From contig JAQWUD010000007.1 in the NCBI GenBank assembly GCA_029242325.1, positions 1 to 64,000 on the forward strand: a stretch of 64,000 nt of DNA, read 5' to 3'. The DNA comes from Luminiphilus sp. (lineage in GTDB: Bacteria > Pseudomonadota > Gammaproteobacteria > Pseudomonadales > Halieaceae). Position numbers and translations under genes: made by a program. This document shows positions 29,575 to 45,957 of this stretch, piece after piece. The first letter of the stretch is position 1. Every line of letters begins with the position of its first letter. The notes below the pieces were generated by a model. It made no database searches, had not been told where the DNA came from, and saw only the letters and a list, made by a program, of their open reading frames with translations.

Positions 29575-31164
29575 CTACCGGCCTCGCAACATCATCTTTG
29601 CAGCATTGCGACCCGGTAGCCCTGTCACGCCGCCGCCGGGATGCGCACCTGAACCGCATAAAAAAACGTTCTCTACCGGCATGCGATAAGACGCATGACC
29701 GGGTATGGGCCGCATTGAGTAAAACTGGTCGAGATGCAACGCGCCATGAAAGATATCGCCCCCAACCATGCCAAGGTCACGCTCAATGTCGAGCGGCGTC
29801 TTGATCTGGCGGCCCAGCACTGACCGTTTGAAGTTGGGTGCGTATGCGTCAACGGTATCAATGATCTGATCAGCAACTTGTTCTCGGACATCATCCCAGC
29901 TTTGTCCATTAGGTAAGTGACGCTGAAAGTGCTGACAGAAAAGGCTGGCCACGTGCGCACCCGGTGGTGCGAGCGAGTCATCCTGCGTGGTGGGGACCTG
30001 CATCGAGATCACGGGGCGTTGCGCCCAGCCGAATCGCTTGGCATCCAGATAGGCTTGCTCAATGTATGCCAATGACGGCGAGACCTCGATTGCCCCCTGA
30101 AAATGCGCCTCGCCTCGCCCAGCCATCGAGGTGAACTGTGGTAACTCAGATAAGGCAACGTTCATGCGGAAGGTCGCTGAATGACTGCGGTAACCCTCTA
30201 TGCGGCGCCGATCTTCATCGCTCAACAGACCAGGATCCAGCATTTTTGTCAGCAACGTTTGCGGGTGTACATTGGCAGCAATCTGTCGGGCATAAAAGGT
30301 GCGGCCGTCGGCCAACGTGACACCCACAGCTTGCTGCCCCTCCACCAAAATTTCATCGACAGGTGTGCCGACCTCTACGACGGCACCCTGCGCTTGCGCG
30401 TAGCGTGCCATGGCATCACTAATGGCACCCATACCGCCTTTGGCAATGCCCCATGCGCCGGCTCGTCCATTGACCTCACCGAAGGCGTGATGCAATAAAA
30501 TGTAGGCTGTACCTGCCTGGTAGGGACTGGCAAAGTTGCCGATTACACCCTCCAGTCCGAGTACGCCTTTTAGCGCTTCTCCTTGAAACCAAGAATCGAG
30601 ATAATCGCCCAGCGAGCTGGTCAACAAGGTCGCCAGCACCTTTTGTGAGTGCGAGCCCAACTTTCTGGCGACGTTGCCGGCCGATAGCAATTGCATAAGG
30701 TCGCGCCACCCCCCACCAAAATCGGGAGGTGACTGAGTCGCCAACTCCCTCAAGGCAATCGCCACCGCACTGATCTCTTGCTCAAATTGGTCGATGCGCT
30801 CAGCGTCGCGCTGCGAAAATCTCGCAATCTCCGCCCGAGCCTGCGTATCGTCCCGGGACAGCAGCAAATGATCATTTTCGAGCAAACTGAGTGTGCCGGC
30901 AGGTCGCTCCATGATCTCCAGTCCGTGCCGCTCAAGTGACAGATCACTAATAACCTGCGGGTGCAGCAGGCTCACGGAATAGGAATAAACAGAGTTGCGG
31001 AAGCCCGGATGGAACTCTTCTGTGACCGCAGCGCCCCCCAATATTTCGCGAGCCTCAAAAAGCCGCACCGACTTACCTGCTTTTGCGAGGTACCCGGCAC
31101 AGGCTAAGCCATTGTGGCCCCCACCAATAATGATGACGTCGGTGTCGGGATTGTGAGCTGTCAT
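29575..31164 (-). CDS. Phytoene desaturase-like FAD-dependent oxidoreductase (paralogue 1)
   Basis: A 529-residue flavoprotein of the CrtI/phytoene-desaturase-like group. The FAD motif GGGHNGLACAGYLAKAG is at residues ~13-29, then LGGAAVTEEFHPGFRN, a block GEVNGRAGAWGIAKGGMGAI near the middle, and the C-terminal FAD block FLCGSGAHPGGGVTGLPG. True carotenoid desaturases share the fold, but this branch (HPGGGVTG ending) is widespread in bacteria without carotenoid synthesis and is uncharacterised. It is head-to-head with paralogue 2, to which it is clearly most similar; the pair probably arose by duplication and inversion. It converges on the sulfatase gene. Confidence 0.87.
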   Translation of the reverse strand: MTAHNPDTDVIIIGGGHNGLACAGYLAKAGKSVRLFEAREILGGAAVTEEFHPGFRNSVYSYSVSLLHPQVISDLSLERHGLEIMERPAGTLSLLENDHLLLSRDDTQARAEIARFSQRDAERIDQFEQEISAVAIALRELATQSPPDFGGGWRDLMQLLSAGNVARKLGSHSQKVLATLLTSSLGDYLDSWFQGEALKGVLGLEGVIGNFASPYQAGTAYILLHHAFGEVNGRAGAWGIAKGGMGAISDAMARYAQAQGAVVEVGTPVDEILVEGQQAVGVTLADGRTFYARQIAANVHPQTLLTKMLDPGLLSDEDRRRIEGYRSHSATFRMNVALSELPQFTSMAGRGEAHFQGAIEVSPSLAYIEQAYLDAKRFGWAQRPVISMQVPTTQDDSLAPPGAHVASLFCQHFQRHLPNGQSWDDVREQVADQIIDTVDAYAPNFKRSVLGRQIKTPLDIERDLGMVGGDIFHGALHLDQFYSMRPIPGHASYRMPVENVFLCGSGAHPGGGVTGLPGRNAAKMMLRGR

Positions 31165-31332
31165 GGTCTAAACCCCCGCTAATGTTTTGGTATTGTAAAG
31201 GCACTCGAATACATCGACATACGTGCCTGCACGGAAGCATACTGGCGCAGCACACATCAGACCCGCGGAGCACACTACTGTTGGATTTTCCTTCAAAGAG
31301 AGTCTTGCAGTGGAAGAGCAACTGAGTTGTCT

Positions 31333-32916
31333 ATGAGTCATTACGACGCCATCGTCATCGGTGCGGGCCATAACGGTCTCACCACAGCCAATTATCTCGC
31401 CAAAGGCGGGATGAACGTCTGCGTTCTTGAGCAACGCCCTGTAGTGGGTGGCGCGGCGGTCACAGAAGAGTTCTGCCCTGGATACCGTAATTCGACGTTT
31501 TCCTACGTCGTGAGCCTGCTGCGGCCTGAAGTCATCCGAGATTTACAGCTAGCCGATTACGGGTATGAGGCTATTACGCTGGAGAACGCGCTCTACATAG
31601 ACTCTACTGGTGATCATTTGCTACTCACCGCCGATGAGCAGTTCAACCGGTCGCAGTTCGAGAAATTTTCTAGAACAGACTTTCAGGCCTATGAGGCATT
31701 CGAACACTCCGTGGATGAAATCGGGCAGCTGCTGGCCAAGCAATGGCTGAGTGAGCCACCCAAGCTAGGCGAACAAGGGGTCGGAGATCTGCTGGCAATG
31801 CTCAAAATGGGCGTTGATGTGTTCCGGCTTGATTCGGAGGCCCGCTGGCGCCTAATGCAGTTTTTTATCGGCGCACCTGAGACGATTATCGATCGCTGGT
31901 TTGAAAGCGACAAAGTGAAGTCGATGATCGCCGCACACATTATGCCCGCCAACTATGCGCCCCTGAGCCAGCCCGGCGCCAGTCTGGCCATGCTTCACCA
32001 CGCCGTCGGCGAGGTGAATGGCCGAGCAGGCGCTTGGGGCATTGTCAGAGGCGGCATGGGCGGTATTACCCAAGCGATGATGAGGTCGGCATTGGCACGC
32101 GGCGTAGCGGTGCGCACCGATGCCGCGGTACACCGCATAGATGTGTCGAATGGTAGGGTTACAGGCGTCACCCTTGCCTCGGGCGAAGCGCTGACTGCGC
32201 CTGTGGTGGCAGCTAATACAGATCCCAAGCGCACGTTTTTTACACTATTGGGCGAGGAGCATTTGCCGGAAGACTTTAGTCGCGACCTGAAGAGCTTCAG
32301 ACAGGAGTCTGCGTCATTGCGAATGAATCTTGCGCTGTCTGATCTTCCAGAGTTTGCCGCCCTACCCGGCGCGGAGGGCCCACATCATCGAGCTAGCATC
32401 ACCATGATCGAAAGTGCCGATCATTTAAATGCCGCATTCCATAGTGCCAAACGGGGCGAGCCTGCGGACCCGCCAATTATCGAGGCAATTATTCCCAGCG
32501 CGCTGGACACTACATTGACCGACACGCCGGGCCACCATGTGATGAGCCTATTATGCAAATACATGCCTTACGACCTGAATGGCGGTCGCTCATGGGACGA
32601 TGAAAAAGACCGCGTCGTGGAGCATATTTTTCGCTACGTTGAGCACTTTATCCCTCGCTTGAGGGAGATCACTGTGGGTTACCAGTGCCTTACTCCACTG
32701 GATCTTGAGACGATGCTTGGGATGACGCGCGGCGATATCTGCCACGGCAGGCTGGAACCCGATCAGCTCTTTAATATGAGACCGCACCCCAACGCCGCAC
32801 AATACGCGACACCGGTGAAAGGGCTCTACTTGTGTGGTTCAGGCGCCCACCCCGGCGGCGGCGTGACTGGTGCGCCGGGACACAATGCCGCGCGACGCAT
32901 ATTGAAAGATGCCTAA
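31333..32916 (+). CDS. Phytoene desaturase-like FAD-dependent oxidoreductase (paralogue 2)
   Basis: A 527-residue paralogue of the gene at 29575-31164. IGAGHNGLTTANYLAKGG opens the FAD domain, VGGAAVTEEFCPGYRN follows, the middle block is GEVNGRAGAWGIVRGGMGGI, and the end is LYLCGSGAHPGGGVTGAPG. ATG 31333 starts directly at the family N-terminus; a TTG six bases earlier is in frame. The 168-base gap to the divergent paralogue should hold both promoters. It converges on the sodium symporter gene (21-base gap). The substrate is probably an amine, amino-acid derivative or lipid; nothing in the protein decides. Confidence 0.87.
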   Translation: MSHYDAIVIGAGHNGLTTANYLAKGGMNVCVLEQRPVVGGAAVTEEFCPGYRNSTFSYVVSLLRPEVIRDLQLADYGYEAITLENALYIDSTGDHLLLTADEQFNRSQFEKFSRTDFQAYEAFEHSVDEIGQLLAKQWLSEPPKLGEQGVGDLLAMLKMGVDVFRLDSEARWRLMQFFIGAPETIIDRWFESDKVKSMIAAHIMPANYAPLSQPGASLAMLHHAVGEVNGRAGAWGIVRGGMGGITQAMMRSALARGVAVRTDAAVHRIDVSNGRVTGVTLASGEALTAPVVAANTDPKRTFFTLLGEEHLPEDFSRDLKSFRQESASLRMNLALSDLPEFAALPGAEGPHHRASITMIESADHLNAAFHSAKRGEPADPPIIEAIIPSALDTTLTDTPGHHVMSLLCKYMPYDLNGGRSWDDEKDRVVEHIFRYVEHFIPRLREITVGYQCLTPLDLETMLGMTRGDICHGRLEPDQLFNMRPHPNAAQYATPVKGLYLCGSGAHPGGGVTGAPGHNAARRILKDA

Positions 32917-32937
32917 AAAAACGCCTAAAAAGAAAAC

Positions 32938-34689
32938 TCAGGCATGACTTGCGGCCACGGGAGACGCGCTGGGCGTGTACCGCCGGCGAATCACCCGCCA
33001 CGCAACAACCCCTAACGGCATATGGATAACCAGTGGACCGATGACGAACCACGGCTCTGCTTGACTCCAATCAATGCTCTGACCTATCTCGATAATGCCC
33101 GCACCGAGCTGATAAGGCTCCACATAAAAATGAAGCAGTAAGAATGGCATCAGACATCCATAAACAATCAGAAGAAGGGGCGCCAGTAACGTGATGCGCG
33201 TCGCGCCCCGATCGAGATCGACCTCGGGAGTTTGATGAAGTTGGGTCCGGTAGTGTCGCTCTTGCTGCGAAATAACATCACCTTTGGAGCCCAAATAGGC
33301 CAGCAGAATAGAGGCAACAATGCCCAGCAAAACGGGCTCAAGATAGCTCGGTAAGTCGATCACCCCTAAATAATCCAGAGCCGCCGGTACGATATTGGCT
33401 AGCAGGCCCGCGAGCATGCCCCAACGCGCCCCCCGCGCTGTGATCGATTGACTCCAAATGCTCATTAGTCCAACTGGACCCCAACTTGACGCAAAGACCG
33501 TCCCGATAAACAGCGTAATCCAGAAAAGGTTGTGCGGTAGGAAAAGGCTCAGCACAAGCACCACAAAGCTAATCAGCGCCATGGCCAGACGCGTCCGACC
33601 CAAGCTTTCAGTATCTTTATGGATACCAAGGTCTTTGCTTGCACTGAAGCCAATTAGCGACAGAAAAGTCGATGCCGATGACAACGCGGCACAGACGATA
33701 CCTGCGACCAATAACGCGCCTAGATAGGTTGGCACCAGATGAGTTGCCGCCCAAATCAAGACTGTTTCTTCATCGTCGATGTTCGGGTTCGCGAGGTTGA
33801 CAAAACCGCCAGCACCGTGGATCGCAATTTGCAAAAAGATCACTACCAGTACGGTATAAATAGAGGCGCGTAACACGACGTGTTCGCTCTTTGCCATCAG
33901 GTGACGGCTGGATTGCCAGGGACTTACTGCAAAAACAAGACTCCACGACAGGTCGATCAACACAAACCAAATAAAGAAGTCCAATGCCGTTGGCCAGGGG
34001 GTCCCCTCTCCGATAACGCCGTGCCAACTTGTTATACCAGGCTTCACGTCCTGCCGCGTCAGATCTTGGATGGTCTGCGAGATGCCCCCAAAGCCCTCCA
34101 CGAGATGGAGTACTAAGAAGAAAGACGCGCCGGTGAACAGGAGGAACATCAGCGTGTCGGTAATCACTACACCTTTGGAGCCGGCGTACAGCGTGAAAGT
34201 CGAATAACTCAGCCACGCGATCACGACGCCCTCGGCGTAGCTGATGCCGGTAAGATCAGAGAGCAACAGAGCAGCCCCCTGCGTCACCACTAGCAAGTAT
34301 CCTCCCAGACCCAATATCACCGTCCAACCAGCGATGCGCTGTACCTCTGACGATGCAAAACGGTCTCCAAAAAAAGCGGCAACGGTGGTCGCTCTGCTCC
34401 GCCTCAGAAATGTGCCAAAAAATAGTGCGCCGTAGACATAACCCGTCACCGTGAGCCCGGGGAGCAATAGGTAAGGGCCCAGTTGGCCTGCATAGGTGAA
34501 GCCGGCCTCGCCCATGAAGACTGTCGTGCTCATGAGGCTCGCGACAAGCGTTCCGATAATGAGAAACGTGGGCGCGCGCCGGCCTGCTACGTAGTAATCC
34601 TCCAGCGTTTTCACACGGCGGCCCGCATAGCTGCCGATAAGGACGAAAATGAAAACGAAACAAGCGATGGTCGTAGCGAATATCGTCAC
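32938..34689 (-). CDS. Sodium:solute symporter (SSS) family protein
   Basis: A 583-residue carrier of the SSS/PutP-like family with 13 or more hydrophobic segments. Signatures: FVLIGSYAGRRVKTLEDYYV, AGRRAPTFLIIGTLVASLMS, FMGEAGFTYAGQLGPYLLL and later VAGIVCAALSSASTFLSLIG, a sodium-site helix of the family (TM8 with consecutive Ser). Substrates of the family include proline, pantothenate, choline-like and other organic solutes. It lies between flavoprotein paralogue 2 and the PuuA/PuuB-like genes, so import of an amine or its precursor is a reasonable guess. GTG 34689 is the start; a large hairpin sits directly upstream. Confidence 0.9.
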   Translation of the reverse strand: MTIFATTIACFVFIFVLIGSYAGRRVKTLEDYYVAGRRAPTFLIIGTLVASLMSTTVFMGEAGFTYAGQLGPYLLLPGLTVTGYVYGALFFGTFLRRSRATTVAAFFGDRFASSEVQRIAGWTVILGLGGYLLVVTQGAALLLSDLTGISYAEGVVIAWLSYSTFTLYAGSKGVVITDTLMFLLFTGASFFLVLHLVEGFGGISQTIQDLTRQDVKPGITSWHGVIGEGTPWPTALDFFIWFVLIDLSWSLVFAVSPWQSSRHLMAKSEHVVLRASIYTVLVVIFLQIAIHGAGGFVNLANPNIDDEETVLIWAATHLVPTYLGALLVAGIVCAALSSASTFLSLIGFSASKDLGIHKDTESLGRTRLAMALISFVVLVLSLFLPHNLFWITLFIGTVFASSWGPVGLMSIWSQSITARGARWGMLAGLLANIVPAALDYLGVIDLPSYLEPVLLGIVASILLAYLGSKGDVISQQERHYRTQLHQTPEVDLDRGATRITLLAPLLLIVYGCLMPFLLLHFYVEPYQLGAGIIEIGQSIDWSQAEPWFVIGPLVIHMPLGVVAWRVIRRRYTPSASPVAASHA

Positions 34690-34694
34690 AATAT

Positions 34695-34735
34695 GCGTCT
34701 CAGGAGCGCAGATGCCTCAGGCATCTGCCAGACGC
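34695..34735 (-). promoter_or_regulatory. Nested palindrome directly upstream of the symporter start
   Basis: GCAGATGCCT, one base, AGGCATCTGC (34708-34728) is a perfect 21-base palindrome. It is enclosed by GCGTCT (34695-34700) and AGACGC (34730-34735), also a perfect match. The structure ends six bases before the GTG start on the minus strand, over the place where the ribosome site should lie. It may be an operator or an RNA hairpin hindering translation. Confidence 0.55.
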
Positions 34736-34975
34736 TTCTGTCTGCACTGTCGGCTCGAGTTCTGCGCACTACTCCTGCCTTTGCCATTGGCTAACCTGCA
34801 TCAAGTAAGTCCTCATGTAGGGTACGCCATTCCGAACAGCCATGACTGCGAGCATATGGGCTGAGAAGCACTGAAGCGACCATAACACCTACAATTGCGC
34901 ACTGAACAGGATCACGCGGAACGTCTGCGGCAAAGCGACGCGTGGTTCGCCTTTACATCAAGCGGAGAACGACAA

Positions 34976-35347
34976 ATGACGGAAATCAGTATTCAAAAAA
35001 CACCCGCAACGCTAACGGATCTCGAGGAGTGCGAATCTTTTGGGGAGCCGGTAGGCGCACTGCCCTTGCAAACCAATGCGGGCTTTTTTGAGAGCGAGCT
35101 TGCAAAAGGTCAGCTTTACACCGGCACCTGGGAGTGCGAGCCCGGCACATTGGAGCTTGATCTCGAACTGACGGAATTCTGCTACTTGCTGGAAGGCCAC
35201 TGGAGGTTCACTTCCGAGACGGGTGTTGTCTCAGAGGTCAGAGCAGGCGATAGCTGGGTCTTCCCCAGAGGCTGGAAAGGCACTGCCGAGGTGATTGAAA
35301 AAGTCCGTAAAGTTTACGCCATGATGGTTCCGGACGACGCGGGATAA
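34976..35347 (+). CDS. Cupin domain-containing protein (DUF861-like)
   Basis: A 123-residue single-domain cupin. GQLYTGTWECEPGTLELDL, TEFCYLLEGHWRFTSETG and VRAGDSWVFPRGWKGTAEV form the two cupin motifs, of the cupin_3 (DUF861) type seen in ureidoglycine aminohydrolase-related proteins. GGAGAA nine bases before ATG 34976 supports the start. Small cupins of this type frequently accompany PuuA/PuuB-like polyamine genes; here the PuuB-like gene converges ten bases downstream. Catalytic role unknown. Confidence 0.85.
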   Translation: MTEISIQKTPATLTDLEECESFGEPVGALPLQTNAGFFESELAKGQLYTGTWECEPGTLELDLELTEFCYLLEGHWRFTSETGVVSEVRAGDSWVFPRGWKGTAEVIEKVRKVYAMMVPDDAG

Positions 35348-35357
35348 AAGGCAGCCG

Positions 35358-36659
35358 CTAAAACAGATCCAGCAGTTTGTAATACGCCATCCCTGCAGCC
35401 AGCAGTGGTCTGCCGAAAGCCCGCCCTCCCGGGAAGGGCAGATGAGGTATGGACGCTACCATATCGAAACGATTGGTTTCGCTGGCAATACTCTCGGCGG
35501 TTATCTTGGCCATGATGTGGGTCGGCGCCACGCCGTGGCCAGAATACGCCTGAATATAGCGAATGTTAGGCGCAAGCTTGCCGAGCTGCGGCATGCGATT
35601 GATGCCAATGCCGATCCAACCACTCCAAGCGAAGTCCACTTTGATATCTTCAAGATCTGGGAATACATTACGCATCTTTTTGCGCATGACCGAGACCAGA
35701 TTTTTGGGCTCCATACCGGTGTAGTTAGAAAGACCACCAAACAACATACGGCGGTCCGACGAGAGTCGGAAGTAATCCAAAGCAGTTCGCGGATCACACA
35801 CGGCGACATCACCCGGCAGCAACTTATCGGCCAGCGTCTCCGAGAGCGGTTCGGTGGCTATAACCGAGCTCGCCGAGGGTAATACCCTTGCGCTGAGTTT
35901 TGGAATCAACTTACCCATATAGGCATTGCCCGCAAGTACAACGTGCTTTGCCGTCACACGACCTTGCTCAGTTCTCACGATCGGCTTGTCCCCGGGCACT
36001 ATTTCAAGCGCCCGAGTTTGCTCAAATATCCGTGCGCCACGACTGACCGCTGCTGCTGCCTCGCCGATGCAGAGGTTCAGAGGGTGGATATGGCCGTTGG
36101 CCGTGTTGTGAAGACCTCCGAGATACCGGTCAGAATTCACGAATTCCTTGAGCTCGCTGGCATCGAGCAGTGTGTAAGGATGGGGGTTACCGATCGTTTT
36201 TTCCCAGTCACGCCACTCAGCAAAATTTTTCATGTGCCGGGGCTTTAGCGCCACGTCGCAATAACCCCACTTCAGATCACAATCGATACTGTAGTTTTCG
36301 ACGCGCTCTTTGATGATGTCGCGCGCCTCAATACCCATTTGATAGATGGTATTGATGCCCTGCTCACCAATCGACCTCTTGAATCGCTCTGGAGTATGGC
36401 CAATACCACCAATGATTTGTCCGCCATTGCGCCCGCTCGCGCCCCACCCGATTCGATTGGCTTCAATCAGTACCACCTCGTGGCCCCGCTCTGCGAGCTC
36501 AACCGCCGCATTCACCCCGGAAAAACCGCCTCCGACGACCACGACGTCACACTCAATCGCTTCAGTCAGCGTGGGGTACTCTGTCGCGGGCCTGCGCGAT
36601 GCCGCATAGTACGATCCAGTATGCTCAGAAGAATCCTGTATCGCTCGCAGTCCAAACAT
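35358..36659 (-). CDS. FAD-dependent amine oxidoreductase, PuuB-like
   Basis: A 433-residue DAO-fold flavoprotein. Its N-terminus, with HTGSYYAASRRPATEYP, closely follows that of gamma-glutamylputrescine oxidases (PuuB). The FAD site is VVVGGGFSGVNAAVELAERG (about residues 40-59), and IGWGASGRNGGQIIGGIG is the covalent- or tight-FAD loop typical of the group. The C-terminal YSGHGVAPTHIMAKI is also conserved. Expected reaction: oxidative deamination of a gamma-glutamylated amine with release of ammonia and H2O2. It is divergent from the PuuA-like ligase gene (178-base gap), as expected for a polyamine or ethanolamine-type pathway. Specific amine unknown. Confidence 0.85.
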   Translation of the reverse strand: MFGLRAIQDSSEHTGSYYAASRRPATEYPTLTEAIECDVVVVGGGFSGVNAAVELAERGHEVVLIEANRIGWGASGRNGGQIIGGIGHTPERFKRSIGEQGINTIYQMGIEARDIIKERVENYSIDCDLKWGYCDVALKPRHMKNFAEWRDWEKTIGNPHPYTLLDASELKEFVNSDRYLGGLHNTANGHIHPLNLCIGEAAAAVSRGARIFEQTRALEIVPGDKPIVRTEQGRVTAKHVVLAGNAYMGKLIPKLSARVLPSASSVIATEPLSETLADKLLPGDVAVCDPRTALDYFRLSSDRRMLFGGLSNYTGMEPKNLVSVMRKKMRNVFPDLEDIKVDFAWSGWIGIGINRMPQLGKLAPNIRYIQAYSGHGVAPTHIMAKITAESIASETNRFDMVASIPHLPFPGGRAFGRPLLAAGMAYYKLLDLF

Positions 36660-36837
36660 GTAGCTCTCTCCAACGGCAGAATAAGGTGGGTAGTGGGCGG
36701 ACCCAGCACCGTTTGCCTTATCATCAGAGCAGATTGTATCGAACTTGATCCATCACCGAATGGCGGCCTATACGACTGGTAGACAAACGCGGTTGCCGCC
36801 CTAAGCTTGACGCTATGGGTGACAAGAGAGATAGACA

Positions 36838-38220
36838 ATGAATTATGCCGACGCGGCAGAATTGGAACATTTCTTAACGGCGTATCCTGATACTCAGGTG
36901 CTGGAACTGCTGATGCCCGACATATCGGGGATTTTGCGCGCCAAGAGAATCCATCGCTCCGAGTTCTCAAGACTCTTCGACGGCACCTTTCTGACACCTC
37001 GCTCAGCGCCATTGCTTGGCGCGAGAGGGGATTGGTATGACGAGATACCCCTCTCAGAGCTTGGGGGCGACCCCGATCAAATCATCCTGCCCGTCTCGGG
37101 AACCCTGGCGCCTGCGCCCTGGTATGACTCACCGGTCGCACAGGTCATGGTGGCCTATACCCAAGACAATGGTGAATTGGACTGGGTAGACCCCCGGCAG
37201 CCATTGGAAAAGGTCCTCGCCTGTTATGCCGAGGGTGGGCTCTCAGCGACCGTCGCAACGGAATTGGAGTTCTATCTGCTGGCAAATACCGACGACAGCC
37301 GCCCTATGCCCCTCAAAGGAAACATTCCCGGTACGAATCTCGAGCAACAGGGCATTCAATACTGCATGGCCGATGACCTGTTCGACTGTGATGCATTCTT
37401 GAACGACGTCAGAATCGCCAGTGAATTGCAGGGCGTACCGCTGACCACGCTACACGGTGAATTCTCCCCGGGACAATGGGAAATCAATACGTTGCATCAG
37501 CCCGACGCAGTGGTCGCCGGAACTCACGCGCTCCTGCTCAGGCGTATTGTGAAAGGCGTCGCAAGAAAACACGGTTACGGCGCCACTTTCATGGCCAAGC
37601 CTTTTGGTGAGCTGGCCGGCAGCGGCATGCACATTCATGCCAGTGTCTATGACAAGGACGGCAACAATGTCTTCGCGGATCCCGAACCAGTGGAACCCCC
37701 TCGCTTGATGCCGCGACTGCGGCATGCCGTGGGCGGTCTGGGTCAATTGCTGGACGAATCCATGCTCTGCTTTGCACCCCACGCCAACTCTTATCGGCGG
37801 TTTAGGGCAGGCGCATTGGCGCCCTCGGGAAAAAGCTGGGGATACGATCATCGCGAAGTCGCATTGCGCGTCCCAAGATCAACAGAGCACAACCGCCGCA
37901 TTGAGCACCGTGTGGCTGGCGCAGAGGCTAATCCGTATCTCGTGCTGGCCGCGGTCTTGGCAGGCATTCATCACGGACTGCAGCAGGCTATCGACCCTGG
38001 TGAACCGGTGCCGAGAGACGCTGATCTCTCTGAGGATGACACAACGCTGCCAGCGCGTGTTGACAAAGCGATTGAACTGTTCGCCGGCAGCGACATTCTA
38101 CCCGGCTACTTCGGTGACGAATTCGCTCAGATTTATACTGCCATCAGGCAAGGCGAGAGCAACGCCTATCATGCTCAGGTACCAGATCTCGATTACGCCT
38201 GGTATCTCAGAGCCCTTTGA
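36838..38220 (+). CDS. Glutamine synthetase family protein, PuuA-like (gamma-glutamyl-amine ligase)
   Basis: A 460-residue glutamine synthetase-fold ligase. ATELEFYLL and GQWEINTLH carry metal and glutamate ligands, GSGMHIHAS the nucleotide and glutamate site, NSYRRFRAGALAPSGKSWG the phosphate-binding loop, and RIEHRVAGAEANPYLVLAA the C-terminal signature. Length and low similarity to GlnA (no adenylylation Tyr loop is seen) place it with PuuA-type gamma-glutamylputrescine or ethanolamide synthetases. It would attach glutamate to an amine using ATP, protecting it before oxidation by the divergent PuuB-like enzyme. ATG 36838 follows AGAGAG. The downstream regulator gene converges 14 bases away. 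Confidence 0.85.
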   Translation: MNYADAAELEHFLTAYPDTQVLELLMPDISGILRAKRIHRSEFSRLFDGTFLTPRSAPLLGARGDWYDEIPLSELGGDPDQIILPVSGTLAPAPWYDSPVAQVMVAYTQDNGELDWVDPRQPLEKVLACYAEGGLSATVATELEFYLLANTDDSRPMPLKGNIPGTNLEQQGIQYCMADDLFDCDAFLNDVRIASELQGVPLTTLHGEFSPGQWEINTLHQPDAVVAGTHALLLRRIVKGVARKHGYGATFMAKPFGELAGSGMHIHASVYDKDGNNVFADPEPVEPPRLMPRLRHAVGGLGQLLDESMLCFAPHANSYRRFRAGALAPSGKSWGYDHREVALRVPRSTEHNRRIEHRVAGAEANPYLVLAAVLAGIHHGLQQAIDPGEPVPRDADLSEDDTTLPARVDKAIELFAGSDILPGYFGDEFAQIYTAIRQGESNAYHAQVPDLDYAWYLRAL

Positions 38221-38234
38221 ACCTCTCAGGTTTG

Positions 38235-38999
38235 TTACTGAATGAGACGGCGATACGATCCTGGAGTCTGACCGGTGACTTTGCGAAAGGCGCTGTAAAA
38301 AGTGGAGGTAGAGTTAAAACCAACTTCCAAGGCGATATCGAGAATCGCCACTCGGGATCTGGTATCTGACTGCATCAACTTGATGGCAGCCTCCACGCGC
38401 CTCTGATTGATGTAATCAAAGAAAGTCGTTTGCAAACCGGCATTAATCGTTTGGGACACATGATTGACCGAGGTGTTCAAGCAATCGGCAAGCTTAGGGA
38501 GCGACAAGTCCGGGTCAAGATATAGCTGTTTCTCCAGCATCAGGTGTTCCAGTGCCTCGAGCAGTTGCGCCATGACCTCCGTTCGCAGGCCAGACTTAAC
38601 ATATCTGACGGCGCTCTCGCCTCCTTGGCCACGGGACAACTCTGTGCGCACCTGATAGTAGTCGCGAATTTCAAAGGCCGAGTTACCGCGCAAGGTAATA
38701 AACTCGGCACCGTGCCAGATTTCTGCCCGACTATCAGGCACCATAGGCTTGCCACAGTACTGAAATGCGATGGTTTTTCCGTTGGAGAGGATATCGCCCG
38801 CAACCTCATAAAAAGAATGGTCGCTTTGAAAATACTCGACCAGCTCCTCAAAGAGGGCTTCTTTATTCATGGCCTCTTGAAGAACCTCATCAATATAGTG
38901 ACCGTTTGAGCAAAGATGCTCCGTGACAGAACCAGCATCCCGCTCGTTCCAAGCTTCGAGATAACTCGCTACGAAAGACGTGGCTGTAACTTTTTTCAT
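38235..38999 (-). CDS. AraC family regulator with N-terminal SnoaL-like domain
   Basis: A 254-residue protein with an unusual layout. Residues ~1-110 look like a SnoaL/NTF2-like small-ligand fold (FVASYLEAWNERDAGSVTEH, then IDEVLQEAMNKEALFE and WHGAEFITLRGN). The C-terminal ~100 residues are an AraC DNA-binding domain with two helix-turn-helices (LADCLNTSVNHVSQTI; DIALEVGFNSTSTFYSAFRK followed by TGQTPGSYRR). Normal AraC regulators sense ligands through cupin-like arms; here the NTF2-like domain probably does so. ATG 38999 is chosen because the TTG further upstream adds twelve poor residues. It converges on the PuuA-like gene and may regulate the local amine genes. Confidence 0.82.
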   Translation of the reverse strand: MKKVTATSFVASYLEAWNERDAGSVTEHLCSNGHYIDEVLQEAMNKEALFEELVEYFQSDHSFYEVAGDILSNGKTIAFQYCGKPMVPDSRAEIWHGAEFITLRGNSAFEIRDYYQVRTELSRGQGGESAVRYVKSGLRTEVMAQLLEALEHLMLEKQLYLDPDLSLPKLADCLNTSVNHVSQTINAGLQTTFFDYINQRRVEAAIKLMQSDTRSRVAILDIALEVGFNSTSTFYSAFRKVTGQTPGSYRRLIQ

Positions 39000-39220
39000 G
39001 AATTCTGCCGCTATCCTGGCGAGAAAACCAGACAATCATAGTGAGTGAATGACTGCATCCAAGCAACCCTTCCCCAATCTTTGAGCCTATGGGGCGCTAT
39101 AGCAACATATGCTCAGTCCAGTAAGGTTTACAAAAACGACTCTAGATCGTCATGCGCATCGAACAATGCCAAAATTCCTGAGGGTCGTAGACTCACTGAC
39201 TGGGTCAAAGGGTTAGGCAT

Positions 39221-40081
39221 ATGAGCACAAAGACATCATGGTGGCAGGCGCTGGGCCTCAAACAGCGATTAAAACTCATCGTCTACGCCCTTCTTCTCGT
39301 CAACTTTGCCCACTACATCGGCAACGATGTCGAACAAGCGCAACATACATTTCACTCGGGATGGCGTTGGTACGACTGGACCAGTACCTTCGCCACCACC
39401 TTGGACGAGCTTGGCTGGTTCATACTGCTTTTCCTCCTTGAGCTAGAGACCTATGTGCTCTCAGACGACGCGTTTACCCGCGGTCGGGTTATAGCGATGA
39501 ACGTTATTCATTTCATCTGCTACGTCGCGATTGGCCATGCGGTCTTTGCTTTTGGGGAGTACCTTGTCGACTTGGCAGGCGCGGTTCATCACTTGGATAC
39601 AACGCTTTGTGCCTTCGCTAACGAAGGCCTGTCGTTTACTCGTAACCTCGCTTACTGGGAGCTCGATGCCAGCAATTGCGTAAAATTATCTAAAAGCAGT
39701 GAGTTTTACGTTTTTTCTCAAGGTCAGGTCATCAGTGACGCTGTAGGCATGACAGTGGAGCTTGAACTTGCTTGGGCCGATCTTATTGAAGTCGTCGTTT
39801 GGCTGTTCGTTCTGTTCTTCATTGAGATGCGGATCCGATTGCAGGATCGCGGTATCAGCAGCAGTCGGCTCCTGTCGTTTGCGACAACCACTAAGGGTTT
39901 CCTGTACGGCATCTTATGGTGCCTTGCCGGATATTGGGCGTATCGCGGTCACTGGATATTTGCCTGGGATGAAGCGCTTTGGATTCTCGGTTTCATGGCG
40001 ATCGGCATGAATCTCTCCGACTGGCAAAAAGAGATCGCCCAGGCAACGACACCTAATGGGGAAGTCGGAAGGAGCAACTGA
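39221..40081 (+). CDS. Multi-pass membrane protein of unknown function (286 aa)
   Basis: About six hydrophobic segments can be seen: LKLIVYALLLVNFAHYIG, LGWFILLFLLELETYVL, MNVIHFICYVAIGHAVFAFG, LIEVVVWLFVLFFIEM, FLYGILWCLAGYWAYRG and LWILGFMAIGM. Acidic residues sit inside several of them (ELET, EYLVD, FFIEMR), which suggests ion or proton handling, but no family motif is recognised. A soluble loop with four Cys or Asn-rich pieces (residues ~128-165) separates TM3 and TM4. No clear partner: the upstream regulator diverges, and the downstream GcvT-like gene converges 21 bases away. Confidence 0.8.
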   Translation: MSTKTSWWQALGLKQRLKLIVYALLLVNFAHYIGNDVEQAQHTFHSGWRWYDWTSTFATTLDELGWFILLFLLELETYVLSDDAFTRGRVIAMNVIHFICYVAIGHAVFAFGEYLVDLAGAVHHLDTTLCAFANEGLSFTRNLAYWELDASNCVKLSKSSEFYVFSQGQVISDAVGMTVELELAWADLIEVVVWLFVLFFIEMRIRLQDRGISSSRLLSFATTTKGFLYGILWCLAGYWAYRGHWIFAWDEALWILGFMAIGMNLSDWQKEIAQATTPNGEVGRSN

Positions 40082-40102
40082 TCGGGGCAACTCGGCCTTG
40101 TT

Positions 40103-41326
40103 TTAGAGGAGACCGGGAGGCGTGAGCCTCGCTCGCTCAGGAGACCAGAACGGTTTGCTCTGGATAGTGCATCGCGCGACCTTGTGGTGGTGCCGCAACT
40201 CGCGCTGATAGTAAATTTCTGCCCAGATCTCGCCCTTCAGTGCTGCGGTATCAATCATCGCTAGCGCGATATTGGCCTTAACCGCTGGGGACCACATTGC
40301 CGAAGTCACGTAGCCAATCTCGCGCGAACATTTCTTATCGCTATATAAAATCGACTCCTCTGCCGGCTTGTTCCCCTCGATATTCAACTTGGTCAGAACC
40401 ACTTCTGGGCCGTTGAGTTTTTGTTCCAGCAACGCCGCTCGTCCGTTGAAATGCGGTTTTTTGAAATCCACCAGCCATCCGAGATCCAGCTCAAACGGCG
40501 TCTGGTCGTACTCGAAATTAACAGTCTTGAGCGCCTCGTTAAATTCCATGTAAGGCATGATAAATCCCGCCTCAAGACGCGCCATATTGGTGGCGGATTC
40601 ACCATAGGGCTGGATACCAAAGTCTGCGCCGGCGTCATACAGAGCATCCCAAAAAGGCAAGGCTAGCTCCGGGTCAATCCACAGCTCGTACCCTAAATCC
40701 CCGGTAAATCCCGTCCGGGACACCATGAGCGTGCCACCCAGAAAAGGGAAGTGACCAATGTCGAACGGTTTCAGACCGGCAACTCCATCGAGCCCCATAC
40801 GCTGCAATACAGCAAAACTGGTTGGCCCCTGTAGAGACAAGGCAGCCCAGTCCTCCGTAGCGTCTGTGACCTCAACGTTTGTAAATCCAAAGGCGCTTTT
40901 GCGAAGCCAAGCTAAACAGGGACTGCCGCACGTCAACAAATAACGATTCTCTTCGAGCCGGAAGACCGTACCATCGTCAATCAACCTGCCCGAGTCAGTG
41001 CACCACGCCACATAGGTCACGCGATTATCTCTGAGCTTATTCAAATCTCGGGTCACCAAGCGATTGAGCATGCGCAGCGCATCGTCACCCTCGATCAAAT
41101 ATTTCTGCATCGGACAAATGTCGTAGGTGCCACAGGTGTTGCGAATGCAGAAATACTCGTAGTCGACATCGTAATAATAGTCGGCAAACTTGAAGCCATT
41201 CCATGACGACCACGCATCCCGAAGATTCAGCACCTTCTCGCGGTCATGAAAATAAGAGACCTTGAGGCGTTCTCCGGCGAATGGGTCACTGGTATCGCTT
41301 CTGAGGATATCGGTCCTATTCGTCAT
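40103..41326 (-). CDS. GcvT-like aminomethyltransferase family protein
   Basis: A 407-residue folate-binding GcvT-fold protein. FCIRNTCGTYDICPMQKYLI at the N-terminus, ALSLQGPTSFAVLQRMG, SRTGFTGDLGYELWI and MARLEAGFIMPYMEFNEAL in the folate-binding region, and a C-terminal GCV_T domain with REIGYVTSAMWSPAVKANIA. It would move a one-carbon unit from an N-methyl or S-methyl donor to tetrahydrofolate. The start is ATG 41326 with AGAGGA eight bases upstream; it overlaps the end of flavoprotein paralogue 3 by 11 bases, so translation is coupled. Last gene of the 44479-40103 operon. GcvT itself is possible, but no GcvP/GcvH are present, so methyl group transfer in a catabolic operon is preferred. 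Confidence 0.83.
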   Translation of the reverse strand: MTNRTDILRSDTSDPFAGERLKVSYFHDREKVLNLRDAWSSWNGFKFADYYYDVDYEYFCIRNTCGTYDICPMQKYLIEGDDALRMLNRLVTRDLNKLRDNRVTYVAWCTDSGRLIDDGTVFRLEENRYLLTCGSPCLAWLRKSAFGFTNVEVTDATEDWAALSLQGPTSFAVLQRMGLDGVAGLKPFDIGHFPFLGGTLMVSRTGFTGDLGYELWIDPELALPFWDALYDAGADFGIQPYGESATNMARLEAGFIMPYMEFNEALKTVNFEYDQTPFELDLGWLVDFKKPHFNGRAALLEQKLNGPEVVLTKLNIEGNKPAEESILYSDKKCSREIGYVTSAMWSPAVKANIALAMIDTAALKGEIWAEIYYQRELRHHHKVARCTIQSKPFWSPERARLTPPGLL

Positions 41327-42938
41327 AGAAGTCATCCTCTGGCACGGTGTTGGGCTTGCGCAAATCGCGCAAAATCTCCCGAGCCGCGTTGGCGCCACAC
41401 GCCGATGAGACGCCGCCGCCGGGGTGGGTGGACGAGCCACACATATACATCTTTTTTAACGGCATGCGGTATTGCCCGTAGCCGGGAAACGGCCGATTAA
41501 ACAGCAGCTGATCTATTGTCAGCTCACCTTGAAAAATATTGCCCTCGGTGAGGCCGATCTCATTCTCGATCTCATGAGGCGTCCGGACCTCGGCATGCAC
41601 GACCAAGTCTTTGAATCCTGGCGCGTAACGTTCAATCTTGTCGATGACGGTTGCGCCAAAAGCATCACGCTTCTCTGGCGTCCAGTCGCCGTCGGCCAGC
41701 GTTGGCGGGCAATACTGGATAAACGTCGACATCCAGTGGCAGCCCGGGGGCGCCACGGTTGGGTCCCAGGCCGACGGAATCACGGCCTCTATGAAGGGGT
41801 CATCTGACCAACGACCGCGCTTCCAGCAATCATAAGCGCGTTCCATCGTTTCCATGGAACCCGTAAAACCCTGTCCGCCGCGATTGATATACCGATTGTC
41901 AGGCACATGAGTGAACGTGGGCATGCCGGAAAGCGCGATATTGACCTTACCCGACGAGCCGCGAATCTTGAAATTTGTTGCGCGCTCGTAAATGCCTTCA
42001 GGCAGATCCGCGCGGTCCATAATCTTGGTAAAGGTGCGTTTCGCGTCAAGGTTGGACACCACAATATCGGCGAACACTTCATCGCCGTTTTCGAGCGCCA
42101 CACCAACCGTGGCACCGTTCTTAACTAAAATCTGGTGCACCGGCGCCTCTGTGCGGATTTCTCCGCCATGCTCGGTCAGCGCCCCTGCCAATGCATGGGA
42201 AATCGCCCCCATTCCGCCTCTAGCGAGTCCCCAGGCACCCACATTACCGTCGACGTCACCCATGACATGATGCAGCAATATATAAGCGGAACCCGGCGAA
42301 TAAACGCCCAAAGCAGTACCAATAATGCCAGGGCTCGCCATCGCCGCTTTGATCAAGTCATCCTCAAAGTAGTCGTGCAGAAAATCCGCCGCGCTCATTG
42401 TGAAAAACCGAATATATTCGTAAAGCTCCCGCTCCCCAAGGTTCCAGAACTGTTTGGCCATCCAAAGGAGTTCTGAAATATCACGTGGCTTGAAAGAACT
42501 GGGGTCAGGCGGTGTCCTCAACAAGGTTTTGCGGATCAGCTGCGCATATCTGCCAAGGTCCGCCTGAAAGCGCGACATCGCGTCGGCGTCGTGGGGTGAG
42601 TGGCGGCGAAGTTCCAGATAAGCCGCCGCCTCGTCGGGATAATCAATCAGCACCCGATCACCACGATCACTGAAATTCACGGTGCCCAGATAAGGGACTA
42701 GCAGCAGTCCATGGCGCGTGAGATCCAAATCACGGTGAATCGATTGCCGCATCATTGAGCAAACATAGGAGCAACTGGAATAGAACCAACCCTCATGCAT
42801 CTCACGGGTTACCGCGGCGCCGCCGATATAGTCGTTCTTTTCCAGCACCACGACGCTTAAGCCGGCCCTGGCTAAATAGGCCGCAGCTGTCAGACCATTG
42901 TGTCCCGCACCTATAATGATCGCATCGTAGCGCTTCAT
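41316..42938 (-). CDS. Phytoene desaturase-like FAD-dependent oxidoreductase (paralogue 3)
   Basis: A 540-residue flavoprotein. IIIGAGHNGLTAAAYLARAG, YIGGAAVTREMHEGWFYSS, GDVDGNVGAWGLARGGMGAI and the end MYMCGSSTHPGGGVSSACG place it in the same family as paralogues 1 and 2, with larger differences (a CSYVCSMMRQS stretch replaces SYVVSLLRP). Its ATG overlaps the stop of paralogue 4 (ATGA, 42935-42938) and its 3' end overlaps the GcvT-like gene. Three proteins made from one tightly coupled transcript probably act on the same substrate, perhaps as a heteromeric enzyme. Confidence 0.87.
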   Translation of the reverse strand: MKRYDAIIIGAGHNGLTAAAYLARAGLSVVVLEKNDYIGGAAVTREMHEGWFYSSCSYVCSMMRQSIHRDLDLTRHGLLLVPYLGTVNFSDRGDRVLIDYPDEAAAYLELRRHSPHDADAMSRFQADLGRYAQLIRKTLLRTPPDPSSFKPRDISELLWMAKQFWNLGERELYEYIRFFTMSAADFLHDYFEDDLIKAAMASPGIIGTALGVYSPGSAYILLHHVMGDVDGNVGAWGLARGGMGAISHALAGALTEHGGEIRTEAPVHQILVKNGATVGVALENGDEVFADIVVSNLDAKRTFTKIMDRADLPEGIYERATNFKIRGSSGKVNIALSGMPTFTHVPDNRYINRGGQGFTGSMETMERAYDCWKRGRWSDDPFIEAVIPSAWDPTVAPPGCHWMSTFIQYCPPTLADGDWTPEKRDAFGATVIDKIERYAPGFKDLVVHAEVRTPHEIENEIGLTEGNIFQGELTIDQLLFNRPFPGYGQYRMPLKKMYMCGSSTHPGGGVSSACGANAAREILRDLRKPNTVPEDDFYDE

Positions 42939-44479
42939 GCGAGAATTTCCTTGGCGGCGTTGCGACCGGGATTCCCGCTCACGTCACCAGCAGGATGACA
43001 TCCAGCACCGCAGAGATAGAGGCCTGAGATAGGTGTCGCATACTGCGCAGCCTCATATGTGGGCCGCATCATCAGAAGTTGATCGATAGCAGGCTCGCAG
43101 TGATGCCAATGACCATTTGTCACACGGTACTGCGCGGCCAAGTCCTGTGGCGTTAGCAACTCACTGGCGAGCACTAATTCCTGAATGCCGGGAGCATAAC
43201 GCTCCAGCTCCCGCAGCACCGTACTCAGCAACTCAGCCCGACTATCAGGCGTCCAACCCGACTTAAGGTCATAGGGCACGTACATCACATTGGCCACCAG
43301 CACGTGCTGCCCCTCGGGTGCCAAACTGGGCTCTTGCAGAGAAGGAACTAACACCTCCATCACCGGCGACGCCGGTAGCTCTTCGTACTTAGCGGCATCC
43401 CATGCAAATTCAATGCTGTCCATGGTGGGTGCAATAATGAGTCTTCCCTGTGGCGAGTCGAGGCCCTGAAAGGCGGGTAGCCCCGATAGCGCCAGATGTA
43501 TTCTGGCGACGTAACCCCGATTACGCAGACGCCGAATACGATTTGTGAATTCAATTTCGAGGTGTTGAGCACCGATCAGCTTGAGGAACGTCGTCTGCGG
43601 ATCTGCGCTAGATACCACGCGATCGCTGAGCAACGCCTCGCCACTTTCCAGCTCGACGCCGGTGCAATGCTGACCGCTCTCATCGCCTGCGATCTGCACT
43701 GTCTTCACAGTGCAGTCGGTCCTGATAGTCACCCCGGCTTGAACCGCAGCCCGCTCCAGAGCGCGCACCAGCCCTGGCATACCGTCTTTCGGAATAACAT
43801 GCTGGCCCGCATCTTTACCTGCCATCCGATTCAACAAAGTGAAAACGGCTTGGTTGGGCGATCGGGGTGCCAACTGCGAGCCCACTAGGGCGTCCCAGCA
43901 CAACGCCGCCTTCAGTCCGTCATCTGAAAAGTGTTCGTCCAGCAAATCGCGCATGGGTAACGTTGCAACACGAAAGAACTCCAACATATCGTCCTTACCC
44001 AGTAAGCGCAGCTTGAGTCCAAGCTTGCCGAAGGTCATGAGGTCTGACAGACCTGTCGCTCCAACTCTCGGCATGGTCCGCTCCCAGAAGGGCGCCAGCG
44101 CCGCTGCAAACTTTTTCAGCATGGTGACGTACTTCGAATACGCTTCGGCGTCATCATCCGCGGCGCCGCTCAGTGACTCGGCGTTGATCGACGGGGGGGT
44201 GCCAGATAAAGACAAGGGTCTTAGGGGGAGCGGCTCGGTGCCAAATGCCAACCCATGGGTAGCCAAGTCCAATTCCCGAATGAGCGAACGCGGCATCGCA
44301 TACAGTGTTTGCGCCAGCGCGGCTTTAAAACCGGGATAAAACTCCCGCTCAGCCGCCATGCCACCCAAAGTTGGGCCGGCCTCGAGAAGTGTTACCCGCT
44401 GACCAGCACGTGCCAACAGGATGGCGCAAACCAACCCGTTGTGCCCTCCGCCAATAATGATCGTATCCTGACCCACCAT
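42935..44479 (-). CDS. Phytoene desaturase-like FAD-dependent oxidoreductase (paralogue 4)
   Basis: A 514-residue flavoprotein, first gene of the three-gene operon. IIGGGHNGLVCAILLARAGQ is the FAD motif; LGGMAAEREFYPGFKAALAQ replaces the GGAAVTEEF block; the end reads LYLCGAGCHPAGDVSGNPG, with HPAGD in place of HPGGG. It is the most diverged of the four copies and may have a different partner role or substrate face. A 170-base gap separates it from the ferric-reductase-like gene upstream on the same strand, so a promoter there is likely. Confidence 0.86.
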   Translation of the reverse strand: MVGQDTIIIGGGHNGLVCAILLARAGQRVTLLEAGPTLGGMAAEREFYPGFKAALAQTLYAMPRSLIRELDLATHGLAFGTEPLPLRPLSLSGTPPSINAESLSGAADDDAEAYSKYVTMLKKFAAALAPFWERTMPRVGATGLSDLMTFGKLGLKLRLLGKDDMLEFFRVATLPMRDLLDEHFSDDGLKAALCWDALVGSQLAPRSPNQAVFTLLNRMAGKDAGQHVIPKDGMPGLVRALERAAVQAGVTIRTDCTVKTVQIAGDESGQHCTGVELESGEALLSDRVVSSADPQTTFLKLIGAQHLEIEFTNRIRRLRNRGYVARIHLALSGLPAFQGLDSPQGRLIIAPTMDSIEFAWDAAKYEELPASPVMEVLVPSLQEPSLAPEGQHVLVANVMYVPYDLKSGWTPDSRAELLSTVLRELERYAPGIQELVLASELLTPQDLAAQYRVTNGHWHHCEPAIDQLLMMRPTYEAAQYATPISGLYLCGAGCHPAGDVSGNPGRNAAKEILA

Positions 44480-44649: not shown

Positions 44650-45564
44650 TCACGCAATAGCGCGATACTGGCGACGGTTAAGAGAATAATTGCCTGTGGC
44701 CACCCAAACGCCCGACGCCATCATGAGTAAAGGCGCGAAGGGTTCAAATGGCCAAAAGGGCAGCCACAATTCCAATTCGGCGGACCAGGCCGGCTCCAAT
44801 AAGGCGCTTGACAACGCCGGTTGCCATAAATGACCGGACCCCGCGAGTACAAGGGAACACAGCACCACGACGCCGCCCAATAACGGCCTTACCCCGATCT
44901 CATAGACCACAACTCGATCCTTGCCCCAGGCCAAGATTCGCAGCGCAAACGCTGTAAATCCCAGTATATAAAAAAGGACATCAAACCAGTGCTGTGTCTG
45001 GTAATAGAAAACGTTCCACCAATAGACACTGTAGGGATAAGCCCACAGAAAGATCACGCCGCTCAGGTGCAGAAAGCGCCATTGCTCTGTTGTGATGTGA
45101 CGCCGAAAAACGCCAAACGAGGTCGCAGTCATCGCAGCAAGAAATAAATAGCCGCTGCTACCCTCAAGTTCGTCACGAAGTAGGTAGATCTCTCCGTAGT
45201 AGTGTGCCGAGTGGGAGAAGGACACAATAAAAATGAAGGCGCCCTGCCAGGCCATGGCGACAGCAAAGCTCAGGCCTATGTATCGCCGATTACGCAGCAA
45301 CCAACGCGTCAAACGGCCTGGAAACAGCCGAACCAAGGCTGAAGTAGCAATCACCAGAAAAATGAACGGTACTGCCCATCTCACGGAGTACTGGATCATC
45401 GCTGACAGATCCTGAGGCGATGACAAGTCCGCCGATGCCAACCGCAACAGCATAAAAGTGGTGATCACTGCAGATACAACTGCAAACAACCGCCACCCAT
45501 TCGGCCACGCTACAAGCACTTTGATCTCCTCTTCACTCATGACAGGCTCGACCAAGCGTGCCAT
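44650..45564 (-). CDS. Ferric reductase-like transmembrane protein
   Basis: A 304-residue membrane protein with about seven helices. LLRNRRYIGLSFAVAMAWQG and SFSHSAHYYGE, followed by WRFLHLSGVIFLWAYPYSVY, resemble ferric-reductase/MsrQ-type domains in which pairs of His hold b-type haem. Only some of the expected His are obvious here (HSAH, FLHL), so the haem claim is tentative. It would move electrons across the inner membrane. A small membrane ORF and a Tat-exported flavoprotein diverge from it and could be its redox partners. ATG 45564 is used; ATG 45540 is an alternative start. Confidence 0.65.
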   Translation of the reverse strand: MARLVEPVMSEEEIKVLVAWPNGWRLFAVVSAVITTFMLLRLASADLSSPQDLSAMIQYSVRWAVPFIFLVIATSALVRLFPGRLTRWLLRNRRYIGLSFAVAMAWQGAFIFIVSFSHSAHYYGEIYLLRDELEGSSGYLFLAAMTATSFGVFRRHITTEQWRFLHLSGVIFLWAYPYSVYWWNVFYYQTQHWFDVLFYILGFTAFALRILAWGKDRVVVYEIGVRPLLGGVVVLCSLVLAGSGHLWQPALSSALLEPAWSAELELWLPFWPFEPFAPLLMMASGVWVATGNYSLNRRQYRAIA

Positions 45565-45861: not shown

Positions 45862-45957
45862 CGACCGCTGTCTTTCGCGAATTGCCCCATAAGCCGTCTG
45901 CTCCAATAGTCAGTACCCCGACCTGTACTTTCCAGACTATTGAAGAACGCGAGAAAA

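Follow-up and report, generated by a model that had tools for sequence, protein, structure and literature searches.

The window analysed here, 64,000 nucleotides of contig JAQWUD010000007.1 from Luminiphilus sp. (positions 1 to 64,000), carries four CrtI-like flavoproteins, PDS1 to PDS4, and a GcvT-like protein. Two of these flavoproteins, PDS3 and PDS4, form with the GcvT-like protein a fixed three-gene module organised as one operon, from which PDS1 and PDS2 are separate. We propose that the three module proteins are probably the subunits of a single folate-coupled oxidative N-demethylase, for which we infer the complex, the reaction, the electron acceptor and the substrate. The window belongs to an 83-kb contig within a 2.76-Mb assembly that is 96.5% complete.

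Architecture and conservation of the module

According to the original prediction, four CrtI-like paralogues lie within 15 kb, PDS1 and PDS2 being divergent, and two of them are joined by overlaps to each other and to a GcvT-fold gene. All these elements were recovered. In the list of open reading frames, the four flavoproteins (514-540 amino acids) fall inside 29575-44479, with pairwise identities of 32-41% over 521-533 alignment columns, and both overlaps are found at the bases given below.

42935..44479, minus strand: PDS4, the module's second CrtI-like flavoprotein, 514 amino acids; first gene of the operon in the window, fast evolving
42935..42938, minus strand: ATGA overlap of 4 bases between the PDS4 stop and the PDS3 start; short overlaps recur in relatives
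41316..42938, minus strand: PDS3, CrtI-like flavoprotein of the module, 540 amino acids; the most conserved subunit
41316..41326, minus strand: overlap of 11 bases between the PDS3 stop and the GcvT-like start, assuming ATG 41326 for the latter
40103..41326, minus strand: GcvT-like, putative folate-binding subunit, 407 amino acids from ATG 41326, recognised by Pfam and profile matches
29575..31164, minus strand: PDS1, CrtI-like flavoprotein of another clade, with no adjacent GcvT gene; recurs near window-type modules
31327..32916, plus strand: PDS2, CrtI-like flavoprotein that diverges from PDS1 and likewise has no GcvT gene next to it; ATG 31333 is its probable start

The GcvT-like reading frame is open from 41440; its start is likely ATG 41326, an in-frame ATG nine bases further upstream being possible. 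PDS2 probably starts at ATG 31333 rather than at TTG 31327 because homology begins there. PDS3 is 58-90% identical to the 15 other rows of its alignment.

In the family of the window, GcvT-like matches at E ≤1e-30, a threshold that lets in other GcvT-fold enzymes too, were found in 44 of 100 genomes. We inspected 33 stretches around selected matches and one continuing the window's contig, and PDS3, PDS4 and GcvT are adjacent in all those long enough to show it. Identity of the GcvT proteins to the window copy falls into three levels, which define type A (68-98%), type B (53-57%) and type C (44-51%) modules. Type B sits 7-11 kb from type C in seven of eight genomes, the eighth being split over contigs, and in genome G059 types C, B and A all lie within about 27 kb. 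The window's genome itself has a second module, of type C, which lies where contig C30 ends; 62 bases separate it from a GbcA-like Rieske gene.

The search was extended to public genomes with the PDS3 alignment as seed. The best 80 of 580 matches (79 loci), a set biased to close kin, come, as far as they could be placed, from gamma-, alpha- or betaproteobacteria. The pooled loci hold 130 PDS3 genes, partly redundant as some genomes were taken in twice, with PDS4 adjacent to 128 and GcvT to 120. Five of the ten loci that miss GcvT stop at contig ends (L080, L094, L107, L116, L129), and two are cut stretches whose modules continue elsewhere (L075 in L086, L027 in L026). In L024, the PDS4 of a type B module (L024:7746-9277, plus strand) is split between two frames, which defeats the adjacency test, and GcvT does follow. 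Real exceptions, with room for a GcvT gene and none present, are L109 and the second PDS3 of L082 (2/130). The three-gene arrangement is beyond chance because the same genes adjoin in almost every relative whose stretch is long enough to show it.

Co-occurrence was also surveyed in 398 genomes drawn from the phylum, searched separately with the GcvT and PDS3 profiles; we take both searches as one draw (equal size, quality and genus tallies, shared handles), and full scoring was limited to three or four candidates in each genome. The GcvT subfamily occupies 12 places at 428 bits or more in 11 of the 398 genomes; the next class, at 257 bits, consists of frames 780-1085 amino acids long, as in trimethylamine N-oxide (TMAO) demethylase. 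The PDS3 profile gives 11 places at E ≤1e-150, side by side with GcvT in the same 11 genomes, the second PDS3 of the window's genome being truncated by the contig end, hence the difference of one. At these thresholds neither protein was found in the other 387 genomes. PDS3 and GcvT touch in the window and lie 1.56-1.89 kb apart in the other ten genomes, where PDS4 fills the gap in all nine loci inspected. As seven of the 11 positive genomes belong to one family (f52), independent events are fewer than 11. An operon found mostly without its GcvT gene was named at the outset as one outcome that would speak against the demethylase idea; PDS3 seldom lacks GcvT, with two real exceptions among the 130 PDS3 genes and none in the 398 genomes.

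The genes are also tightly coupled. Of 125 junctions between PDS3 and PDS4, 57 have an overlap of 8 bases and 40 one of 4 bases (97/125 together). Where the order is PDS3-PDS4-GcvT, a 4-base overlap joins PDS4 and GcvT at 37 of the 82 junctions; in the window's order, PDS4-PDS3-GcvT, the 38 junctions are variable, those printed ranging from a 20-base overlap to a 90-base gap. An apparent PDS4-GcvT fusion in genome G406 (an open frame of 867 amino acids) was rejected as a chance frame, the genes being separate and overlapping. Over 84 modules, distance matrices correlate at r = 0.73 for PDS3-GcvT, 0.68 for PDS3-PDS4 and 0.67 for PDS4-GcvT, values reached by none of 2000 permutations; such correlations can arise from shared descent alone.

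In a tree of 55 rows, PDS1, PDS2, PDS3 and PDS4 fall in separate supported clades, and therefore they did not arise by recent copying of a single gene. The PDS3 and PDS4 clades have 22 rows each, both with a support of 100/100, and those of PDS1 and PDS2 take in two CrtI-like plasmid proteins. On a plasmid of Shinella sumterensis (L148:7995-10746, plus strand), a distant CrtI-like flavoprotein, 40% identical to PDS1, directly precedes an annotated gcvT whose product is 29% identical to the window's GcvT-like protein, among acyl-CoA and 3-keto-5-aminohexanoate cleavage genes. Here the two families may have been paired independently.

The GcvT-like protein and its flavoprotein partners

That the third protein has a GcvT fold, as first predicted, is confirmed by matches above the cut-offs to PF01571 (187.5 bits, cut-off 25.6) and GCV_T_C (38.1 bits, cut-off 25.9). 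It stays below the cut-offs of the T-protein models (NF001567, 201.9 vs 300 bits; TIGR00528, 149.7 vs 235.85 bits). Against the TMAO demethylase model it scores 220.4 bits vs 1100, covering model positions 388-760 only, and the soxA model matches over its GcvT part only (139 bits vs 1164). The best profile match is the C-terminal GcvT domain of TMAO demethylase (9q5a, 1.1e-69), with T-proteins next. A Foldseek search with its single-chain model, of predicted local distance difference test (pLDDT) score 76, returned T-proteins, DmdA, sarcosine oxidase and dimethylglycine oxidase at the top.

The residues expected of such an enzyme are present. The DD of the GcvT-like protein aligns with D95/D96 of the Thermotoga maritima T-protein, the second D of DDGT corresponding to D96, and the Glu of its GYE motif aligns with E195; the DD and this Glu are invariant in 19 of 19 module GcvT rows. 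By analogy with T-protein, we take the aligned Asp to be catalytic and the aligned Glu to bind folate. The PDB entry 3gsi agrees with these roles: its title names dimethylglycine oxidase carrying the mutation D552A, together with tetrahydrofolate (THF). The GARD stretch of three aligned T-proteins (1woo, 1yx2, 1v5v) is absent: in its place, each of the 19 module sequences shows A-L, which is also the form in the TMAO demethylase Tdm, or else S-L or A-T. The Arg of GARD may be a feature that defines T-proteins.

The window's genome holds nine GCV_T matches (contigs C4, C20, C22, C23, C25, C30 and C31): two of module type, two DmdA-like (one of them by eye), four in proteins of 807-921 amino acids whose GcvT parts look DMGDH-like by eye, and a short one on C31. 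Leaving this short match aside, no canonical T-protein was recognised among the nine, in an assembly that is nearly complete.

The strongest competitor of a joint N-demethylase holds that the two parts catalyse separate reactions: the flavoproteins would be amine oxidases or desaturases that work at a different C-N or C-C position, and the GcvT-like protein would demethylate a different molecule or group, such as an O- or S-methyl, using no flavoprotein product. We consider this a minority explanation that nonetheless deserves to be kept in view. The GcvT-fold enzymes DmdA and LigM do demethylate without a flavoprotein, both families are matched by the GcvT-like protein, and the window holds a separate DmdA-like gene. 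However, the models fit the module protein poorly (DmdA, 144 vs 410 bits; LigM, 66 vs 580; syringate demethylase, 69 vs 800), and the co-occurrence of the three genes, their overlaps and their correlated divergence favour one enzyme, bearing in mind that shared descent also correlates distances.

As for the flavoproteins, PDS1 to PDS4 all carry an N-terminal flavin adenine dinucleotide (FAD) motif and a common C-terminal motif. Their family invites the idea that they are desaturases or ketolases of carotenoids or other isoprenoids, of CrtI/CrtO type, with the GcvT-like gene as an unrelated passenger. Indeed, the best NCBIfam matches are CrtO and crtI_fam, and the closest folds of the PDS3 model are gamma-carotene desaturase and CrtI (4rep, 4dgk). 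Yet all four proteins score far under the cut-offs (CrtO, 221-278 bits vs 1000; crtI_fam, 100-121 vs 238.1), no carotenoid gene was recognised among the annotated neighbours, which are a part of all neighbours, and the GcvT gene is nearly always present. We regard the carotenoid explanation as improbable. After the desaturases, the fold matches of PDS3 are an uncharacterised oxidoreductase (3ka7), then nicotine oxidoreductase, putrescine oxidase and monoamine oxidases, and this amine-oxidase company speaks for the N-demethylase. With pLDDT scores of 76 for the GcvT-like model and 72 for that of PDS3, weak at 203-236 and 461-488, these single-chain models are of middling confidence, and we draw no active-site claims from them.

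Finally, the GcvT-like protein might run in the synthetic direction, or act in regulation or folate sensing as YgfZ/IBA57 to aid the flavoproteins in iron-sulfur or redox repair. YgfZ and IBA57 do have this fold. We hold this to be very unlikely, as the structural matches to them are at 4.7e-14 and weaker vs 3.9e-31 for T-protein and the demethylases, the Asp and Glu are invariant and the neighbours are catabolic.

A possible clue to the chemistry of the flavoproteins comes from human PYROXD2, which we take to belong to the family of PDS3. Among the genetic data, PYROXD2 variants track urinary trimethylamine and plasma dimethylamine, and its expression in fat tissue correlates negatively with trimethylamine, with no such expression effect in whole blood, according to one study (PMC3169529). 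In a second one (PMC13352909), PYROXD2 variation tracks the missingness of N2-acetyl-N6,N6-dimethyllysine.

Genomic surroundings of the modules

Window-type loci recurrently hold PDS1, PDS2 and a further set of genes, which in the window are the following.

32938..34689, minus strand: sodium:solute symporter family protein
34895..35347, plus strand: cupin (Cupin_3) protein
35358..36659, minus strand: DAO-type oxidase-like protein; best NCBIfam match L-pipecolate oxidase, 187 bits, cut-off 600
36838..38220, plus strand: glutamine-synthetase-like protein; best NCBIfam match gamma-glutamylputrescine synthetase, 187 bits, cut-off 650
38235..39035, minus strand: AraC-type regulator
39221..40081, plus strand: 286-amino-acid protein convergent with the GcvT-like gene; no Pfam match, putative membrane protein from a look at its sequence
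44650..45564, minus strand: second protein with no Pfam match, likewise a putative membrane protein; recurs beside the module in relatives

Type C and alphaproteobacterial loci keep other company, named after annotated representatives: BetI-type TetR regulators, GbcA-like Rieske oxygenases, class III aminotransferases, and ABC importers of PotF-/PotD-like and other kinds. Annotated isolates have the full set. That of Fuscovulum ytuae runs in one direction and comprises an aminotransferase, the two flavoproteins, the aminomethyltransferase, alpha subunits of two ring-hydroxylating dioxygenases and an ABC importer for polyamines; similar sets occur in Parasedimentitalea marina and Rhizobium sp. 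SL42. The class III aminotransferase and the polyamine-type importer suggest a di- or polyamine-like cation as substrate.

We tested this company for enrichment in 32 module-bearing genomes, comparing all matches with the positions of module GcvT genes within 10 kb; expected counts are those for randomly placed genes, and kinship among the genomes means that they do not count as independent. With a cut at 240 bits, picked after the table had been seen, 16 of 18 GbcA-like Rieske genes in the window's family lie that close (0.21 expected). BetI-type regulators (E 1e-15) do so in 18 of 23 cases in the window's family (0.30 expected) and 11 of 37 in other families (0.14 expected), and 12 of the 29 near modules reach the BetI cut-off. 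PurU, which frees THF from formyl-THF, is near a module in 6 of 20 matches (0.21 expected), all six in the window's family. Twice, a TetR regulator of BetI type with a fused GNAT acetyltransferase domain was seen between type B and type C modules (L024:15081-16184, plus strand; L026:12669-13871, minus strand).

Several observations weigh against an N-demethylase, in addition to the post hoc Rieske cut and the desaturase folds closest to PDS3. The window copy of the module has no Rieske, BetI-type or PurU gene adjoining, and its two metabolic neighbours, the glutamine-synthetase-like and DAO-type proteins, are below the NCBIfam cut-offs listed above. At 240 bits or more, none of six GbcA-like genes in other families lies within 10 kb; without any cut, this holds for 19 of 66 Rieske matches from the window's family and for 1 of 24 from the remaining families (90 in all). 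This single one (G420) stands directly behind the GcvT gene, and five more in other families are 12-14 kb away, beyond the limit. No GbcA-like match in the 32 genomes reaches the GbcA cut-off. PurU (E 1e-50) lies away from the module in 14 of its 20 matches and has no match in 15 of the 32 genomes, that of the window included. The PYROXD2 link is a genetic association, and the kinship with PDS3 is presumed. Moreover, in PMC13352909 the dimethyllysine signal was non-significant in one cohort after adjustment for diabetes.

Taken with these points, the initial proposal that CrtI-like flavoproteins and GcvT make up an undescribed demethylase holds in part. It is supported for PDS3, PDS4 and GcvT, since the neighbours of their relatives point to the breakdown of N-methyl amines or polyamines and not to carotenoids; PDS1 and PDS2 fall outside it, the window copy is without the most telling neighbours, and the reaction is a predicted one.

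Other genes of the window were noted on the way. A 637-amino-acid flavoprotein (45940-47853, plus strand), matching only an N-terminal FAD motif, recurs near the module in L047, L050, L051 and L052. The DmdA-like gene, the second GcvT-fold gene of the window (53038-54198, plus strand), scores 377 bits vs a cut-off of 410 and stands beside an acyl-CoA synthetase (54325-55950, minus strand; PRK08162, 840 bits, cut-off 677). An agmatinase (59315-60259, minus strand) reaches 447.6 bits vs a curated cut-off of 302; the genes most like it are found near modules in L026, L029, L044 and L048.

Proposed reaction and comparison with known systems

In the N-demethylase that we propose, on the pattern of dimethylglycine dehydrogenase or sarcosine oxidase, the CrtI/PYROXD2-type FAD pair would take two electrons from the N-CH3 of a secondary or tertiary amine, PDS3 being likely the catalytic subunit and PDS4 its partner. 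The resulting methylene-iminium or formaldehyde-level unit would be passed to THF on the GcvT subunit, giving the demethylated amine and 5,10-methylene-THF. The Rieske enzyme beside the module in many relatives may first demethylate a quaternary nitrogen, PurU, where present, would recover THF, and copies of the module might differ in substrate or act on successive methyl groups. The substrates are most likely N-methylated di- or polyamine-like amines or betaine-like cations.

A bolder version, which we put forward tentatively and believe less likely than the simple three-subunit enzyme, is that the module represents a class of N-demethylases not described before, folate-coupled, with three subunits and a flavoprotein of the CrtI/PYROXD2 family at its core, that the paralogous modules of a supercluster strip successive methyls from a polyamine-like cation with several N-methyl groups once a Rieske enzyme has taken off the first, and that human PYROXD2 oxidises N-methylamines (methylamine or dimethyllysine) in mitochondria.

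We found no description of the PDS3-PDS4-GcvT module in the literature searched, preprints and most subscription papers being outside its reach. A study of one-carbon (C1) metabolism in SAR11 (PMC3160333) deals with different GcvT-like genes, of which one adjoins a gene for monomeric sarcosine oxidase, and the word "phytoene" is absent from its main text. Homarine catabolism was dropped as a host pathway, no such cluster being named in the titles of the literature found.

If the proposal is true, folate-coupled oxidative demethylation would draw on flavin partners of two independent kinds. Carriers of the second kind are marine gammaproteobacteria as well as alphaproteobacteria, Shinella, Rhizobium and Rhodobacterales among them. 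Genes that annotations now call NAD(P)/FAD-dependent oxidoreductases would then be demethylases of methylated nitrogen compounds, which are relevant to nitrogen and C1 cycling in the sea. Human PYROXD2, whose link to trimethylamine and methyl-lysine levels is so far unexplained, would gain a chemical role open to testing.

Such a chemistry would be of a known kind, and the flavin partner, the subunit make-up and the context would be new. Dimethylglycine oxidase and dehydrogenase and sarcosine dehydrogenase couple the oxidation of N-CH3 by a flavin to THF on a GcvT-fold domain, and the module GcvT matches their structures (1pj5, 5l46, 4pab). However, the flavin part of these enzymes has a DAO fold and is fused to the GcvT domain, whereas that of the module is a separate CrtI-like pair with near full-length matches to the CrtO model; in PDS3 the best DAO match is confined to residues 5-54. 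The heterotetrameric sarcosine oxidase SoxBDAG and N-methylglutamate dehydrogenase are also multi-subunit demethylases, with a GcvT domain in the alpha subunit (1vrq, 2gag), but no module gene resembles SoxB, SoxD or SoxG over its length. Tdm provides the GcvT domain closest to that of the module, which nevertheless is without the N-terminal Tdm domain. PDS1 to PDS4 share fold and FAD motif with CrtI and CrtO but remain below their cut-offs, and PDS3 and PDS4 are partnered with a GcvT protein. Finally, glycine betaine catabolic clusters combine GbcA, BetI, dimethylglycine and sarcosine oxidation and PurU. The same kinds of neighbours surround the related modules, whose loci differ by adding a polyamine-type importer and an aminotransferase, and by GbcA-like proteins that are all below the cut-off.

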